A DNA stretch of 41,865 bases from Nitrospirota bacterium (lineage in GTDB: Bacteria; Nitrospirota; Thermodesulfovibrionia; Thermodesulfovibrionales; SM23-35): positions 1 through 41,865 of the forward strand of contig JACAFF010000022.1 in assembly GCA_013388455.1 (NCBI GenBank), given 5' to 3'. Below the pieces are notes generated by a model. It did not search any database, was not told the DNA's origin, and saw only the letters and a program-made list of their open reading frames with translations. Each line of letters starts with the position of its first letter. The stretch's first letter is position 1. Positions 4,835-21,334 of this stretch are shown here, piece by piece. The position numbers were made by a program, and so were the translations under genes.

Positions 4835-6526
4835 TTACCAGTAGTATCTTCTCAGAAGCACATACACAGAACATGACAGAACAAAAATCATGTAGACCGC
4901 TGATGCTAAGCCTAATATTCTTTCATTCAAACGAATCCTTCGATTATAAAAAAGTAGAAAGAAAAGAGGTGCTATCGGAATAAAATACCGCCCCTGTATT
5001 CCCCGGATGATACTGCTGCCAACCTCTGTCCATGATAGGTACATAGCGGTATATATGAGGAGTCCTATTAAAGTAAAAACAGCAAACAGAACCAATCTGT
5101 TTTTGAAATTTATCTGTATGTCATTTTGACTATCAAGAAGAGCAACCGTTATGAGCACGAAATAATATGACCATATCAGCCAGTCCGGCAAAGGGGTATC
5201 AAGCCATCCTAAAACTCCGATAAAATGTTTGAGATATTCTTGGCCTGATAGTAAAGTAGTTTGAATAATTATCCTGAAAAATTCTATGAGATTATTAACA
5301 ATAAAAAGTAACTGTTGCTCTGGTTTAACTGAGGCAATAAAAGGATATGAGACATAGATATCTTTAGTAAAAAAAGACCAGAGCCCCAGAAAAATACTAT
5401 TAACTAACAGTAATGATATGAATGTCACATAATAGAGTTTTTTTGATTTGAACTTGCTCACTGGAATGAGAAAGAACAAAAAAAGAAGTGGCAAATAAAC
5501 GTATTTTGAAAGCGTAACAGACATGGTTAGGAGTAATAAAATAAAGATTTTGATCTTACCTATTCTCTTGCCATCATTCAGGGCATATTTGAGAAAAACA
5601 GCAATCAGCAGGAAGGACATCGCATTAGTGAAGCTGTCTGCTGAAACTGAAGCTGCCTGTGAAAGTGACATTGGAGTGAAGGCAAGAAGAGGAAAAAGCC
5701 ATTTTGAAGAAGGTAAAATTCTTATTGCAATATACATAATGAAAATCCATACAGTTAGATTAGCAAGTCTTCCAAGATACATAAGAAACAGAGGGGAAAG
5801 ATTTAATATTTTTCCAACTTCAATTCCAAAAGCTTGAGGTATATATGGCAAAGGAGTATATAATGCTGTATTATGAAATTTTGCAAACGACTTATTTTCA
5901 GGTTCAAGTGGATAATTAAACATAGTAAACAGAATCTGCAATCCCTGTTTCTGTTCTGGATGAAAGGGAATATCACTTGTAACTTTTAGATATGTGTCTG
6001 TAAGCGATGCTGGTAAAAATGCTCCTACTTTATAGATGGTGGTTATATCACGTATTTCTGCAAGAACTTCATCTCCACTAATCTTTTTTAGCAATGCTTC
6101 GTATTTAAGCGTTTTATTATCGTCAATTATCTGAAATTGAAAAACCTGTTCTTTGGCCTCATCGATTGCGCAATGTGTAAAATACATTATCTTATCTGCT
6201 ACGGCGGGAGGTACGGCTTGAGATACTTTTTTTCTTATGCCGGAGTTTTCATCTTTTTCTGGTTCAAGTTTTACGAATGTCCCGTCTTTCTTGATTCGGA
6301 ATATTGCATCTGGGGGCAATTTATTGTAATGAAATTTGCTGGCTAATATAGCAAATTCCGAGACATGATACGCACGGAAAAAATGACTTGGCTCCTCTCC
6401 AACCTGAAATGGTGGAGTTACGACTAAAAAAAGAAGACCGAAAAGTATTCCAATAATCAAAAAAACTTTCTCAGGTCTTAGAGCAGTTAATTCTTTACCT
6501 TTCTTCATGATATTCTTCTTCTGCAT
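4835..6526 (-). CDS. DUF2142-family polytopic membrane protein
   Basis: A 563-residue integral membrane protein. After a first transmembrane helix (~residues 22-40) comes the DUF2142 hallmark [15 protein letters not shown], then a ~170-residue extracytoplasmic loop, then roughly ten hydrophobic helices. DUF2142 proteins are found in polysaccharide clusters and look like GT-C-type glycosyltransferases, with the conserved acidic motif in the first loop; the reaction is not established. The frame overlaps the end of the FAD-oxidoreductase gene by 32 bp from the ATG at 6526, or 14 bp from an in-frame ATG at 6508 that has the better purine-rich spacing. Either start implies translational coupling. 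Confidence 0.85.
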
Positions 6527-8063
6527 TCACTGCCCAGATATTATCTTTTTTTGTAACACCCTTTATTATATTTTCCACAGCTACAATAGCCGTAAGCATT
6601 GAATGATCCATGTTGTTATATCTGTGCATTCCGTTTCTTCCAATTAGAAATAGATTTTCGAAACTATCTACAAATTCCCTGATTACATGAAATTTATCAT
6701 ATGAGCCAAAATATGCAGGATAGGTCTTTTTCATTCTTATAATTGTGCTATCAAGGACATCTCCTTTTTCTATGATCTCGATTTTAGCCAATTCATCTAT
6801 TGCAAACTTTTTCAAATCATCATCTGGCTTATTCCATAGTTCATCTCCTTCAGTGCAACAATATTCCAATCCAATCCAGACAGTATTTTCGTCCTTAACC
6901 ATATAAGGGCTCCAGTTATTAAATATCTGGATTCTGCTCAGTTTTACATCATGTTCCTGAACGTAAATCCAGTTATCAGGAATTATGTTATTGATTGTCT
7001 TTATTTTTGTTTCATTCTTTATTTTAAGTTTCCTCAAAAGCAAACCAACTGTTATGAAATCACGGTATATCAAACCATCTGCTACCTGCCGAACTTCTTC
7101 AGGAACATTCTTATTAAAGGCCTGTATTAAATCTTTAACAGGCATTGAGGAAAAAAAATAATCCCCTTTTACAGTTTTCACTTCACCGGTGGAACAATCC
7201 TCTATCTCTGCCTCAACTATTCTGCTGTCACGATAGTTTAAACCTATAATTCTATGTTTGAGATATATTTCTCCTCCTTTTTGTTTCACGATCCTTGCGA
7301 CTTCTTTCCATAGCTGTCCGGGCCCGAATTTCGGATACATAAACTGCTCAATAAGACTGGTCTCAGTTTTTTTCTGAGCAATTGAAGAATCCTTTGAGAG
7401 GATGCGACTGACCGCATGGAGAACTGCCTTTGTGACAGATAAACCCTTTATTCTTTGAGCACCCCATTCAGGCTTGATCCTGTTGCAGGGGACTCCCCAT
7501 ACTTTCTCTGTATAGTCTTTGAAAAAAGTAAGATAAAGCTCTTTACCGAATCTGTTGATAAAAAAATCTTCAAGAGATTTTTCGTGTTTGATTGGAAATA
7601 GCCGAATTCTGACATAACTCAGAAAAATTTTAATAATGCGAACCACTCCTAAATTTAAAAAAGTATTGGAATACAAAGAAACAGGGTAATTAAAAAATCT
7701 TCGCAAGAAAAATATTCGTGAGAGACGTCTGCGAATGAGCATTACTCGATCTGTTTTTTCAGGATCAGGACCTTTTTGAGAAAGCGGGATATTTCTTTTA
7801 AGGATGATATCATCTCTTGACGGAACTCCTTGTAAAGGAAGGATATTCTGCCACCACTGCATAACCCTGTCGGATTTCGAAAAAAATCTGTGTCCGCCTA
7901 TATCTATTCTGTTGCCTTTATAGTTAACAGTCTTTGAGATTCCACCAATATCACTGCTCATTTCAAAAATGACGGGCTTTATATCAGTCTTTTCAAGCAG
8001 TTCATACGCTGCTGTCAGCCCAGTAGGACCCGCACCGATTATAATGGCCGTTCTCTGACTCAT
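6495..8063 (-). CDS. FAD-dependent amine-oxidase-like oxidoreductase (glycan-locus type)
   Basis: A 522-residue flavoprotein from the ATG at 8063 (the frame can extend two codons to a GTG). The N-terminus [17 protein letters not shown] is the dinucleotide-binding GxGxxG. It is followed by the acidic end of strand two in [12 protein letters not shown] and by [16 protein letters not shown], a motif shared by UDP-galactopyranose-mutase-like and protoporphyrinogen-oxidase-like proteins. The C-terminal FAD contact is around [15 protein letters not shown]. It sits between a methyltransferase and the DUF2142 gene. Proteins of this kind are common in O-antigen and exopolysaccharide clusters, but their substrate is generally unknown. 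At 522 residues it is longer than typical UDP-galactopyranose mutases (~370-400), so I do not assign that activity. Confidence 0.8.
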
Positions 8064-8139
8064 AATCACTTATTCTAACGGAATAATATGAACTTTCTTG
8101 CTCCAAAATTCCACAGAAAAACAAAGGGGGTAGAAATTA

Positions 8140-8895
8140 TTATATTTTCTCTTTTGGATAAATGCTGTCAGTAATATCTCTGATGCTTATGTCCCATTTG
8201 AAGAGTTTCTCATCGTAATTGCCGGTTTTCTTAGCCAGTACATTAGAGAGAAGATAAGCCTCATGGTTAGTTTCCCAATCAGGAATATTTAATTCAGGAA
8301 TCACCCTGCACGGGAACTCCATGTTAGAATACATAATTTCATAACCATTCCATCTATTCAGAAGAATTTTCCATGCCTCATCAGAGAATCTCCAGAAATC
8401 CCATGGCTTTTCATGTAGTGGAAAAGTCTGCAAGGTATTAATAAACAATAACCCATTCGACTTGAGGATTTTATTGATTTCTAAAACTACTTTCCATGGC
8501 ATTGCCAGATGTTCAAAAACTGCTTTGGACATTACGACATCAAAATGATCACGTGGGAAAACAGAACTTAATTAATGTGCATCACATACAATATCAACAT
8601 TTGGACCTTCATGGATATCAAGGCCGGTATATTCATGCGGGAAGTTAAGTTCAAGCATATATCGCAAAGCCTCTCTTGTAACAACCCTTGAACCCAGCTC
8701 CAAAATACGTGGATTTTCAATTTCTCCTATCTTTTCTTTAAAAAGCGAAAGAATATTTATTGATGTTACTTCTTGAGTGTTAGATACAGGGTTAACCTTT
8801 TCGCTTTCAAATTTATGGCTTAATTCTAAAAAAGATCGTGCTAAGGTCTTTCTAAAACCATAATTTTTGTAATACCTGATTATTTTTCTGATCAT
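8140..8895 (-). pseudogene. Class I methyltransferase interrupted by an in-frame TAA
   Basis: Two pieces in one frame form a complete methyltransferase. Piece 1 (8572-8895) carries the N-terminal helix, motif I (RILELGSR), the second-strand region (YTGLDIHEG) and ends VDIVCDAH. A TAA at 8572-8574 follows, and the frame then continues at once with LSSVFPRDHFDVVMSKAVFEHLAMPWK, the expected next part of the family, down to the stop at 8140. There is no frameshift: one base change (for example a GAA or AAA to TAA) explains it. Relatives usually read DAH-x-LS here. The longest downstream piece that could restart (ATG at 8532) lacks the SAM-binding motif. So this is a recent nonsense pseudogene, an assembly error, or less likely a recoded stop. 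It lies in the glycan locus just upstream of the FAD oxidoreductase. Confidence 0.85.
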
Positions 8896-8999
8896 TGTTA
8901 TAACTTTCAGTAAACATTTTCTTCTTATCTGAGTTAAAAAGACTCACATATGCCCATTTTTATAGAGTCTTGTATAAAAAGAATGCAATCTTCGTTATA

Positions 9000-9398
9000 T
9001 CAGAAAATATCTTTTATTTTCGTGACAAATATCTCAGCCTTTTCTATAGCTTCATTGGACTCATCAGGGGTAAATGATGTTTCAGGGTAATAATCCGCCT
9101 CTTCTCTTAGTTTCATTAATCTTCCGATGATCTTTCCGATATCAATTTCCACATCTTTTGTCTTCACATAATAAAGGCTGAACATCCTTTCCACACCTTC
9201 ATGGCTTTGAGGTACCACACCTTTCATAAGAAGAGCAGCCTTTGCAGAGTGATAAACAGCATAATAGGCAGATGCAATACTTTTATAATAAAAGCCGCTC
9301 TCATGCAGAACTTTAGCTGCCTTAAGTTCATCCATTGCACGTATAAATTCATCCTGCGCGAGTAGTCTACCTTCTTCCTTACCTATTCTCTCGACCAT
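9000..9398 (-). CDS. HEPN-domain protein, probable toxin of a MNT/HEPN pair
   Basis: A 132-residue all-alpha protein of the PF05168-type HEPN class. The signature is SIASAYYAVYHSAKAALLMKG (~residues 40-60), followed by SHEGVERMF and, near the C-terminus, REEADYYPE. I do not see the RNase-type R-x4-6-H motif of HepT-like HEPN toxins at the C-terminal position; in this HEPN class the conserved element is the R-x-x-A-D-Y-x-P stretch, so ribonuclease activity is not assured. It overlaps the upstream nucleotidyltransferase gene by 16 bp, so the two are co-translated. Such pairs act as toxin-antitoxin modules in several studied cases, with the nucleotidyltransferase neutralising the HEPN partner. 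Confidence 0.85.
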   Translation of the reverse strand: MVERIGKEEGRLLAQDEFIRAMDELKAAKVLHESGFYYKSIASAYYAVYHSAKAALLMKGVVPQSHEGVERMFSLYYVKTKDVEIDIGKIIGRLMKLREEADYYPETSFTPDESNEAIEKAEIFVTKIKDIF

Positions 9399-9733
9399 AT
9401 CACTATACCCTCTTTTTTTACTCTCATGAGAAAGGTACTAAGCCTTTCTCTGAAGTCTGCCTCTGAAACAAAAATTGCTGATACTATGACGTCATTAGAT
9501 AGTTCATAGTTATAGATAATGTCACTAATCACAAACCTTGTTGACCGGTCTATATTATTTTCTGTAATAAACAGAATATCTATATCAGAGCCCTCAAGGC
9601 TCCCCCCCCTTGCTTTTGAACCGTATAAAATAACTTTTTTTATGGGATACTTAGACGTGACCTCGTTAATAATACCTTTAAGGGCATGCTGCTCATTATA
9701 ATTAAGAGGGATATCTTTAGTTACAGAATACAT
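9383..9733 (-). CDS. MNT-type nucleotidyltransferase, probable antitoxin
   Basis: A 116-residue minimal nucleotidyltransferase. The catalytic signature GSKARGGSLEGSDIDILF (~residues 38-55) has the GS-x-x-RG and the D-x-D spaced as in the polymerase-beta fold (PF01909). It is the first gene of a two-gene operon with the HEPN gene. In characterised MNT/HEPN modules the nucleotidyltransferase adds AMP to the HEPN protein; whether this pair does so is inference. There is almost no leader between the promoter and the ATG, and no ribosome site is visible. The pair sits inside the glycan locus but has its own promoter, which suggests independent acquisition. Confidence 0.88.
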   Translation of the reverse strand: MYSVTKDIPLNYNEQHALKGIINEVTSKYPIKKVILYGSKARGGSLEGSDIDILFITENNIDRSTRFVISDIIYNYELSNDVIVSAIFVSEADFRERLSTFLMRVKKEGIVIWSRE

Positions 9734-18958: not shown

Positions 18959-20563
18959 TCAGTGAGGCCTCTTTTGTGCAATTATTAGTGCGTAGGTATG
19001 CTCGAAAATACCTTTTTCTATCTGAACTTCTTGAAATTGCAATATAGAGTTTATAAGGGCTAAGTCTCTCTCATTCTCTGGGTTCAATCTGTCTACTATC
19101 TTATCAAAAAGAAGGTCATGCAATGGACCGCCCAAATATCTTATGGTGAGAATATCAAAATATTTTTTAATTAAAGGCATTATATGCAACGAATTTATTG
19201 CTGTTTTTCCAGTGCTAATTTGTAATGAATTTTCCTGAATATCTATGTCAGTTCCATACAACATAGCCCGGTAAATCATGTCAGCTATTTTTATTTCCTT
19301 ATCAGACCATTGAAAATTCTGGGGCCCTATATATTCTAAAGCAATAATAAAACCCTGTCCCTTCAGAATATGATGTATTTTAGACAGAAAAGCTTCAAGA
19401 TTTTCTATATCACTTAATACATCTATACAGAGAAATAAATCATAATATTGTTCTCTAATAGCAGAAAATCTCTTTGTTATATCTGTAGATGTCACTGTGA
19501 TGTCAATAGTATCAAATGACCTGCATATATTGAATAAAATGAAATTATTCTCAATACCTTTCAATCTCTTGCAAATACTTAAACCTTTTCCAAGAGATTT
19601 TATCATTTGCTGTTTTCTCAGAAAATCATAGAAGTGTATCCCTGGATCTCCGGTAATCATCTCCTCAAAATTACTTATTAAAGGAGGTGAATCCCACCAC
19701 GAAACAGGCCGTTTTGCTGACTGATTTTCGACTGCATTCTCCGGGATTTCAGGTACAAGTTTTTCTATATTCTCTTCTCCAATACTTGTTGGTTGCTCTT
19801 CAATCTGTTGCGTATTTATCTTTATTCCTGAAAACTCCATGTATTTTGTTATCACCTGCCTTGGGCTACCGATTTCCATTATGCTGCCGGCTTCAATCCA
19901 TGCCGCCCTGTCACATAACCTTTCTATCATCGTCATATCATGACTGACGATGATAATCGTAGTCCCTGAGTCTTTGAATTCCATAATCTTTCTCAGACAT
20001 TTCTCCTGAAAATTCAGATCTCCTACAGCAAGTGCTTCGTCTACGAGCAGTATTTCAGGCTCTACATGAACAGCTACAGAAAATCCGAGCCTGACATACA
20101 TGCCCGATGAATAGGTTCTCAACGGCTGATAGATAAATTCCCCAAGCTCTGAAAATTCAATGATGCTATTCATTGCTTTAAGCATAGTATCCCTTGTGTT
20201 TCCCATGAGTATGCCATTAAGGATTATGTTTTCAATACCAGAGAGGTCAGGATGAAAACCAGCTCCAAGTTCGAGTAAAGAGGATATTTTCCCATTCTTT
20301 ATAAGGAGACCACTGTTCTGTTTAATCACACCTGCAATAAGACCAAGGATTGTGCTCTTGCCGGAGCCGTTTTTTCCGATTATGCCGAAAGTTTCGCCTT
20401 TATAAACTACAAAAGATACGTCTTTTAATGCTATAAACTTAGTCTTTTTTAGAGATGCAATACTTCTGGGGAGATTGAACAGAAAAGACTTAAATCCTGC
20501 GGTGATATGCTGATAAAAAGGATATTCTTTGTAGACATTCTCAAACTTTACAGCAATATCCAT
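18959..20563 (-). CDS. wzt: Polysaccharide ABC exporter ATPase (Wzt type) with degenerate methyltransferase-like C-terminal domain
   Basis: A 534-residue protein. Residues 1-~245 are a Wzt/TagH-type ATPase: Walker A GKNGSGKST (63-71), signature YSSGM (151-155), Walker B ILLVDEA (171-177), switch His208. A ~40-residue linker follows. Residues ~285-530 are not the usual beta-sandwich carbohydrate-binding domain of Wzt proteins. They match the layout of a methyltransferase family seen in glycan clusters: ...YDLFLCIDVLSDIENLEAFL..., LKGQGFIIALEYIGPQNFQWSD. The SAM-binding GxGxG loop is missing; the equivalent stretch reads LSICKRLKGIENNFILFNI. It may therefore bind a methylated or unmethylated glycan end without catalysis. 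The wzm stop and the wzt start are adjacent. Confidence 0.85.
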   Translation of the reverse strand: MDIAVKFENVYKEYPFYQHITAGFKSFLFNLPRSIASLKKTKFIALKDVSFVVYKGETFGIIGKNGSGKSTILGLIAGVIKQNSGLLIKNGKISSLLELGAGFHPDLSGIENIILNGILMGNTRDTMLKAMNSIIEFSELGEFIYQPLRTYSSGMYVRLGFSVAVHVEPEILLVDEALAVGDLNFQEKCLRKIMEFKDSGTTIIIVSHDMTMIERLCDRAAWIEAGSIMEIGSPRQVITKYMEFSGIKINTQQIEEQPTSIGEENIEKLVPEIPENAVENQSAKRPVSWWDSPPLISNFEEMITGDPGIHFYDFLRKQQMIKSLGKGLSICKRLKGIENNFILFNICRSFDTIDITVTSTDITKRFSAIREQYYDLFLCIDVLSDIENLEAFLSKIHHILKGQGFIIALEYIGPQNFQWSDKEIKIADMIYRAMLYGTDIDIQENSLQISTGKTAINSLHIMPLIKKYFDILTIRYLGGPLHDLLFDKIVDRLNPENERDLALINSILQFQEVQIEKGIFEHTYALIIAQKRPH

Positions 20564-21334
20564 CTATAAAACCTCAGCAAATCTCCACCTCAGTCTTTTG
20601 AAAATGAAATAACCGATGGCAAAAACGATTAGAGAATAAAGAAATGCCATAGCGATATCTCCGGGATTAATTATTCCTCTCATGAAAAGGTTCCGCCAGC
20701 TCACCATGAGAATAGATAATGGATTCAGTAATATCAGTCCTTTGAAATTATCAGGAACCATATTTTCCGCATATATAATAGGCGTGATATAAAACATGAG
20801 CGTTGTAATAATAAACACTATCCTTTCAATATCTCTAAAGAAAAGATTTATCGAGGAGACGGCAACAGCAAAACCAAACGTTATTATAAATTGTATTATT
20901 AAAAGAATAGGAATACCAATTAACCACATCAAACTCGGTGTTATTCCATAGAAGAATACGAATATTATTATTATTGGTATAGAGAGAATAAAGTGAAGCA
21001 TATCATTCAGAACAGTAGCAATAACGAGCACTTCCCTTCTGAAGTTCACTTTTTTGATCAGCGGAGCATTTCCTACAAGTGTCATCGCTGAACTGTTTAC
21101 AGAGTTTGAAAACCACTGCCAGGGGAAGAGTCCTGATATAAGAAAAAGCGTGTAGTTTTCGATCTGGATCTTCATGAAAATCTTAAATGCTATAAAGAAA
21201 ACCAGAGAGAGAGCAAGCGGGTTTGCAATAGACCAGAGATACCCCAAAAAACTTCTTTTATACTTAACCTTCAGTTCTTTCTGAGTAAGTGCTATAACTA
21301 AATCCTTATAATACGTAAACGAGCTTTGTTTCAT
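20564..21334 (-). CDS. wzm: Polysaccharide ABC exporter permease (Wzm type)
   Basis: A 256-residue ABC-2 type permease with about six transmembrane helices. The N-terminal amphipathic part LTQKELKVKYKRSFLGYLWS is the family hallmark, as are SGLFPWQWFSNSVNSS and the late LLNPLSILMVSWRNLF. It pairs with the ATPase encoded immediately downstream to export a lipid-linked O-antigen-type polysaccharide across the inner membrane. It is the first gene of the exporter/glycosyltransferase run; the 127 bp between it and the gspD stop must hold its promoter if it is not read through from gspD. I see no clear consensus there. Confidence 0.92.
   Translation of the reverse strand: MKQSSFTYYKDLVIALTQKELKVKYKRSFLGYLWSIANPLALSLVFFIAFKIFMKIQIENYTLFLISGLFPWQWFSNSVNSSAMTLVGNAPLIKKVNFRREVLVIATVLNDMLHFILSIPIIIIFVFFYGITPSLMWLIGIPILLIIQFIITFGFAVAVSSINLFFRDIERIVFIITTLMFYITPIIYAENMVPDNFKGLILLNPLSILMVSWRNLFMRGIINPGDIAMAFLYSLIVFAIGYFIFKRLRWRFAEVL

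Follow-up and report, generated by a model that had tools for sequence, protein, structure and literature searches.

We found that a methyltransferase gene in a surface polysaccharide locus of a Nitrospirota bacterium is interrupted by one premature stop codon. The gene encodes a class I SAM-dependent methyltransferase of the Methyltransf_11 type (positions 8140 to 8895, minus strand); it would span 251 codons if read through, and its single internal stop is a TAA at codon 108 (8572 to 8574, minus strand). All 20 aligned homologues carry a sense residue in this column, which is itself variable, and the gene as written is a pseudogene. Our preferred explanation, to which we assign a probability of roughly 0.6, is that the TAA is a real nonsense mutation, fairly young in the sequenced population. 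Here, the window denotes the whole stretch of DNA that was analysed (41,865 nt), and all positions are counted from its first letter.

One reading frame, one stop codon

Translation of 8140 to 8895 on the minus strand yields 252 codons, with the internal TAA at codon 108 and a terminal TAA, and both halves lie in one reading frame with no frameshift at the stop. An earlier note on this DNA had described a single in-frame TAA at 8572–8574 without a shift, preceded by CDAH and followed by LSSVFPRDHFDVV; the translation reproduces the stop and its context, and supplies the strand that had been missing. The other frames of the same interval contain 16 and 33 stops on the same strand and 10, 9 and 20 stops on the opposite strand, while 143 open codons in a row would be expected by chance with a probability of about 5 × 10−5 at this base composition.

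The list of open reading frames divides the gene into two minus-strand pieces. The N-terminal piece (8575 to 8895; listed as ORF 8572–8895) has 107 amino acids and includes the leader and the ILELGSR, YTGLDIHEG and CDAH segments, and the C-terminal piece (8140 to 8532) has 130 amino acids when counted from the next in-frame ATG, which lies 13 codons past the stop. The window contains five further adjacent pairs of in-frame open stretches (at least 90 codons each), and every one of them corresponds to two separately listed neighbour genes, such as wzm and wzt. A similar pair of separate, tip-to-tail genes is ruled out here by the full-length family alignment. Because that alignment spans both the 107-aa and the 130-aa stretch, the two are one gene in two pieces.

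We also considered whether the two pieces could be made separately, with translation restarting at the ATG at 8532, and then be reassembled into a split enzyme, as their adjacency in one frame and the short interval of 13 codons between stop and restart codon might suggest. However, the restart ATG falls within the conserved FDVVMSKAVFEH segment, so that the restart product would begin inside it, and none of the 20 aligned homologues is split at this site. By eye, the 25 bases before the restart ATG hold no Shine-Dalgarno-like run, which is a weak argument because the gene's own start at 8895 also lacks a clear one. We regard a split enzyme as extremely improbable.

Homologues and residue conservation

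One pattern-based scan of the species-genome collection identified five loci. The best of them (L022), from Nitrospiraceae bacterium Ngb-4 (OUUY01000062.1), encodes an uninterrupted protein of 255 aa; of the other four, two come from Oscillatoriales MAGs and one from Planktothrix, all three cyanobacterial, and the fourth comes from Janibacter. The joined frame aligns with the Ngb-4 protein over nearly its whole length at 61% identity (alignment A2; 58% in the best tblastn segment), and the frame is unchanged at the stop. DNA identical to the Ngb-4 stretch is also present in G431, a genome assigned to another family of the same order; the two are therefore probably one genome and were counted once.

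Across 395 genomes of the phylum, matches at E = 10−10 or better were found in 28, the source genome included. The other 19 genomes of the family (a set of 20 with the source genome), all from other genera, yielded no orthologue, their best match having an E-value of 2.4 × 10−11 and 34% identity, and none of them has a DNA match over the broken gene. Among viral contigs, three stretches fit a pattern and none encodes a relative.

The alignment comprises 20 of the 33 prepared homologue rows; the 13 rows outside it are short or more distantly related. In one of these, L040, codon 2 of the match is a TAG, just before the methionine that is its likely start. In the ten closest of the 20 homologues, 31 columns are invariant, and the window protein retains 29 of these residues, departing at positions 104 and 185. 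When each of the ten was left out in turn, nine intact homologues departed at 0 or 1 of 29 or 30 residues and the tenth at 8 of 37; several of the ten form near-identical pairs, whose own counts are lowered by this. The window's two departures exceed those of nine of the ten intact homologues, which gives a slight hint of erosion. The gene thus stands slightly above most homologues in departures, yet is not clearly decaying. The earlier note called the remainder of the gene undamaged, which is true of the frame but not of these two core-invariant residues.

Family assignment

With an X in place of the stop, the read-through protein matches Methyltransf_11 (PF08241) at 37.4 bits (E = 4.1 × 10−9), above the cut-off of 21.2 bits. 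The C-terminal piece alone reaches 32.8 bits against the same cut-off, window positions 8143 to 8571 align to the second half of the profile (56–95 of 95), and the N-terminal piece alone has no Pfam match at E = 10−3. Within the N-terminal piece, ILELGSR aligns with the ILEVGSR and ILEIGSR/VLEIGSR segments of the closest homologues, and we take it to be the motif I position (an acidic residue plus glycine, here E.GSR). NCBIfam matches all fall under their curated cut-offs and are to general methyltransferases such as UbiG and BioC.

A single-sequence search of PDB sequences with the read-through protein returned no matches. A 14-row profile returned 11 solved structures (E = 3.1 × 10−7 and weaker); almost all bear methyltransferase names, and none of the 11 is evidently linked to glycans. 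An AlphaFold2 prediction for the Ngb-4 homologue, made from four input sequences, has a mean pLDDT of 42.3, too low for the model to be of use.

Readthrough of the stop codon

A full-length protein could still be produced if the TAA were read through, whether in a programmed manner or by suppression, and the persistence of the family pattern in the downstream half is compatible with such a product. Several observations argue against it. We found 43 tRNA genes in the source genome (RF00005), to all of which ARAGORN assigns sense anticodons, and TTA, CTA and TCA anticodons are absent from this set, which is incomplete since Ile-GAT and Ala-TGC were not seen among the 43. Of the 24 open stretches in the window that reach 200 codons, 13 end in TAA, and a stop occupies this column in none of the 20 aligned homologues. 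No Rfam family is found in the gene at the gathering threshold, at which the whole window yields only an SRP RNA and a tRNA, both outside the broken gene. Readthrough is accordingly judged very unlikely. An alternative genetic code or a suppressor tRNA is likewise unsupported, given the 43 tRNA genes and the use of TAA as a terminator.

Locus context

The gene's neighbours identify a polysaccharide locus. Downstream lies an uninterrupted NAD(P)-binding, amine-oxidase-like protein of the NCBIfam PRK07208 type (6495 to 8069, minus strand). Farther along the window are a Wzt-type ABC ATPase with an extra, marginally methyltransferase-like C-terminal domain (18959 to 20563, minus strand) and a Wzm-type ABC-2 permease (20564 to 21334, minus strand; PF01061). 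The locus also contains a DUF2142 membrane protein, a HEPN and nucleotidyltransferase pair, glycosyltransferases, a sulfatase-domain protein, a sulfotransferase, a WsaF-like glycosyltransferase, a protein with three glycosyltransferase-2 stretches and a secretin.

The intact methyltransferase of Ngb-4 is found in a locus with a secretin, a Wzm-type permease, Wzt and glycosyltransferases. The two genes thus share their family, their leader and the kind of locus in which they lie, whereas the Ngb-4 gene is uninterrupted at 255 aa and its surrounding gene order differs. The presence of a Wzm/Wzt locus both here and in Ngb-4 supports a role in an exported glycan. The enzyme is probably a surface-sugar methyltransferase, with its glycan substrate read from the neighbourhood alone. 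The assignment of a methyltransferase gene to a polysaccharide locus, its remainder keeping to the family pattern, had been proposed before, and both the alignment and the neighbourhood agree with it.

The Wzt of the window and that of Ngb-4 (L022 11289–12752, plus strand) have in common a C-terminal extension of about 240 aa, and they are 57% identical over the aligned proteins. In the Wzt of the window, the extension matches Methyltransf_11 at 21.4 bits (cut-off 21.2) and Methyltransf_31 at 19.3 bits, the latter under its cut-off of 27. A domain fused to Wzt, as the earlier note had it, is indeed present here and in Ngb-4, but its likeness to a methyltransferase is marginal. None of these results supports the note's suggestion that the domain may read methyl caps, or indicates that the interrupted enzyme would make such a cap.

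Directly upstream of the broken gene, inside the polysaccharide locus, is the HEPN and nucleotidyltransferase (MNT) pair (9000 to 9733, minus strand). Its MNT matches the PADLOC PDC-S09 models and falls under the cut-off of the NCBIfam MntA antitoxin model. In a related locus of another genome, G014 (L126, about 5869–6346; G014:C48 25868–26345), the MNT frame is near full-length and is not listed as an ORF of at least 100 aa, its HEPN partner is reduced to a short remnant, and a second, unlike pair (HepT-like plus Polbeta) adjoins it.

An N-terminal leader found before unlike methyltransferases

The protein begins with a leader of about 28 residues (IRY....G..KTLARSF..LS; 8809 to 8895, minus strand) that is common to unlike methyltransferases in the genomes G014 and G435. 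It recurs at 54% and 59% identity before two other methyltransferases (L126 3217–4002 and L130 859–1629, both minus strand), which match Methyltransf_11 at 85.1 and 32.2 bits and are only about 25% identical to the broken protein over 218 and 143 residues, leader included. The leader-bearing methyltransferase of G014 borders a related glycosyltransferase cluster on the corresponding side, and that of G435 has, by eye, a glycosyltransferase-like frame on the same stretch. Over the 176 genomes of the order, the source genome included, leader matches at E = 0.1 or better occur in nine. Four of the nine are better than 10−3, one of these being Ngb-4's own copy in G431, and the five weaker ones may be chance.

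In one speculative interpretation, the leader would be an exchangeable helix, for docking or in the membrane, through which varied methyltransferase domains are linked with the Wzm/Wzt glycan assembly; catalytic domains would be swapped while the leader stays, and the broken gene would be one such cassette on its way out of use. We consider this unlikely; if true, it would mean that Wzm/Wzt glycan loci exchange catalytic domains behind a constant leader.

Real mutation or assembly error

Among 110 domain matches in the source genome, an internal stop occurs in one, which is this gene (1 of 26 Methyltransf_11, 0 of 27 ABC_tran, 0 of 25 Glycos_transf_2 and 0 of 32 Radical_SAM matches). This count covers stops within matched domains only and no frameshifts, 4 of the 27 ABC_tran rows score under the cut-off, and several matches fall in one same protein. 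A general decay of the assembly is unsupported at one stop in 110 matches. Intragenic stops therefore look rare in the assembly, which counts against a poor consensus without settling the identity of one base.

The TAA could instead be a wrong base call or an error of the consensus, or else a minority or strain-mixed allele, with the gene intact in the organism. The genome is a 44-contig draft (99.4% complete), the remainder of the gene reads intact, as one wrong base would leave it, and a lone stop among 110 domain matches fits a rare error. Against this, stops are uncommon over those same matches, and a genuine isolated nonsense mutation would look alike. We hold an error or mixed allele to be a realistic alternative, though a less probable one than a real mutation. 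The near-intact remainder of the gene indicates either a fairly young mutation or a consensus error at this base, and the earlier note had chosen the correct pair of rivals in offering recent inactivation or assembly error.

Age of the stop codon

We compared the two sides of the stop with the Ngb-4 protein. Upstream of the stop, 53 of 100 residues are identical, and downstream 93 of 141, with dN values of 0.35 and 0.23, respectively; dS is saturated, so this pair provides no internal clock. A simple neutral simulation was used to count the substitutions that the gene could have taken up since the stop arose while gaining no further stop and losing residues as observed. P = 0.065 at 20 substitutions if both departures at invariant residues pre-date the stop, and P = 0.052 at 40 substitutions if both post-date it. 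The resulting bound of about 20 to about 40 substitutions corresponds to roughly 3 to 5% of the 753 sites, and zero substitutions, as in an error, are also allowed. Under this model, a nonsense mutation can reasonably be described as fairly young. The description of the inactivation as very recent goes further than the simulation, which only bounds its age at up to about 20–40 post-stop substitutions.

A real stop could, as a special case, reflect phase variation, in which glycan methylation is switched reversibly. Mutations that change the serotype are known to fall in one surface polysaccharide methyltransferase gene, rfbT/wbeT, as the cited account describes it (PMC3727987). However, the region from 7900 to 9100 contains no tandem or direct repeats, its sole inverted pair is weak (16 nt, 81%; 8064–8079 and 8323–8338) and does not span the stop, and the gene has a single homopolymer of at least 6 nt, a T6 close to its start. 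Within this searched region, neither a repeat tract nor an invertible element at the stop lends support to the suggestion of phase or serotype change, and phase variation seems highly improbable. A promoter scan of the same region gave two promoter-like sites compared to a mean of 4.6 in shuffled sequences, which is uninformative, and a terminator scan of it found none.

Consequences and comparison with known systems

In the proposed course of events, a class I SAM-dependent methyltransferase gene that once worked, in an ABC-transporter-dependent (Wzm/Wzt-type) surface polysaccharide locus, would have gained one nonsense codon. Translation would then end after residue 107, and the 107-aa product would comprise the leader and the SAM-binding first half but not the conserved second half (FEH...HEKPWDFWRF), so that the FEH and HEKPWDFWRF segments would be missing. 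Neither the 107-aa nor the 130-aa piece appears to be a complete catalytic domain, and neither should have activity. As neither should work alone, the gene as written is a pseudogene, and this methylation of the exported glycan would no longer take place unless another methyltransferase of the genome carries it out.

If the stop is real, one methylation step in the making of the exported surface glycan has probably been lost from this population. For annotation, likely pseudogene is the appropriate label, a small point in a little-known lineage.

Methyltransferases are described as acting on Wzm/Wzt-exported glycans in the cited accounts of the methylphosphate terminators of ABC-dependent O antigens, which concern WbdD and ORF6 of Klebsiella O7 (PMC11231755, PMC3482155). 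As described there, these methyltransferases work with a kinase, and ORF6 of Klebsiella O7 also has coiled-coil and glycosyltransferase modules (PMC11231755), whereas the window gene is a stand-alone frame of 251 codons; the likeness is one of description. A parallel in the kind of event is found in Vibrio cholerae O1 (Ogawa/Inaba), where, according to the cited account, rfbT/wbeT mutations in natural isolates, nonsense mutations included, give rise to a serotype without the 2-O-methyl group (PMC3727987). If the stop is real, a surface polysaccharide methyltransferase gene is disabled by mutation in both cases, but Vibrio cholerae is another organism in which the phenotype is established, and the two are likened by the kind of event and not by sequence homology. 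If real, the loss described here would be the same kind of one-mutation change as the Vibrio cholerae serotype switch, as that account presents it.
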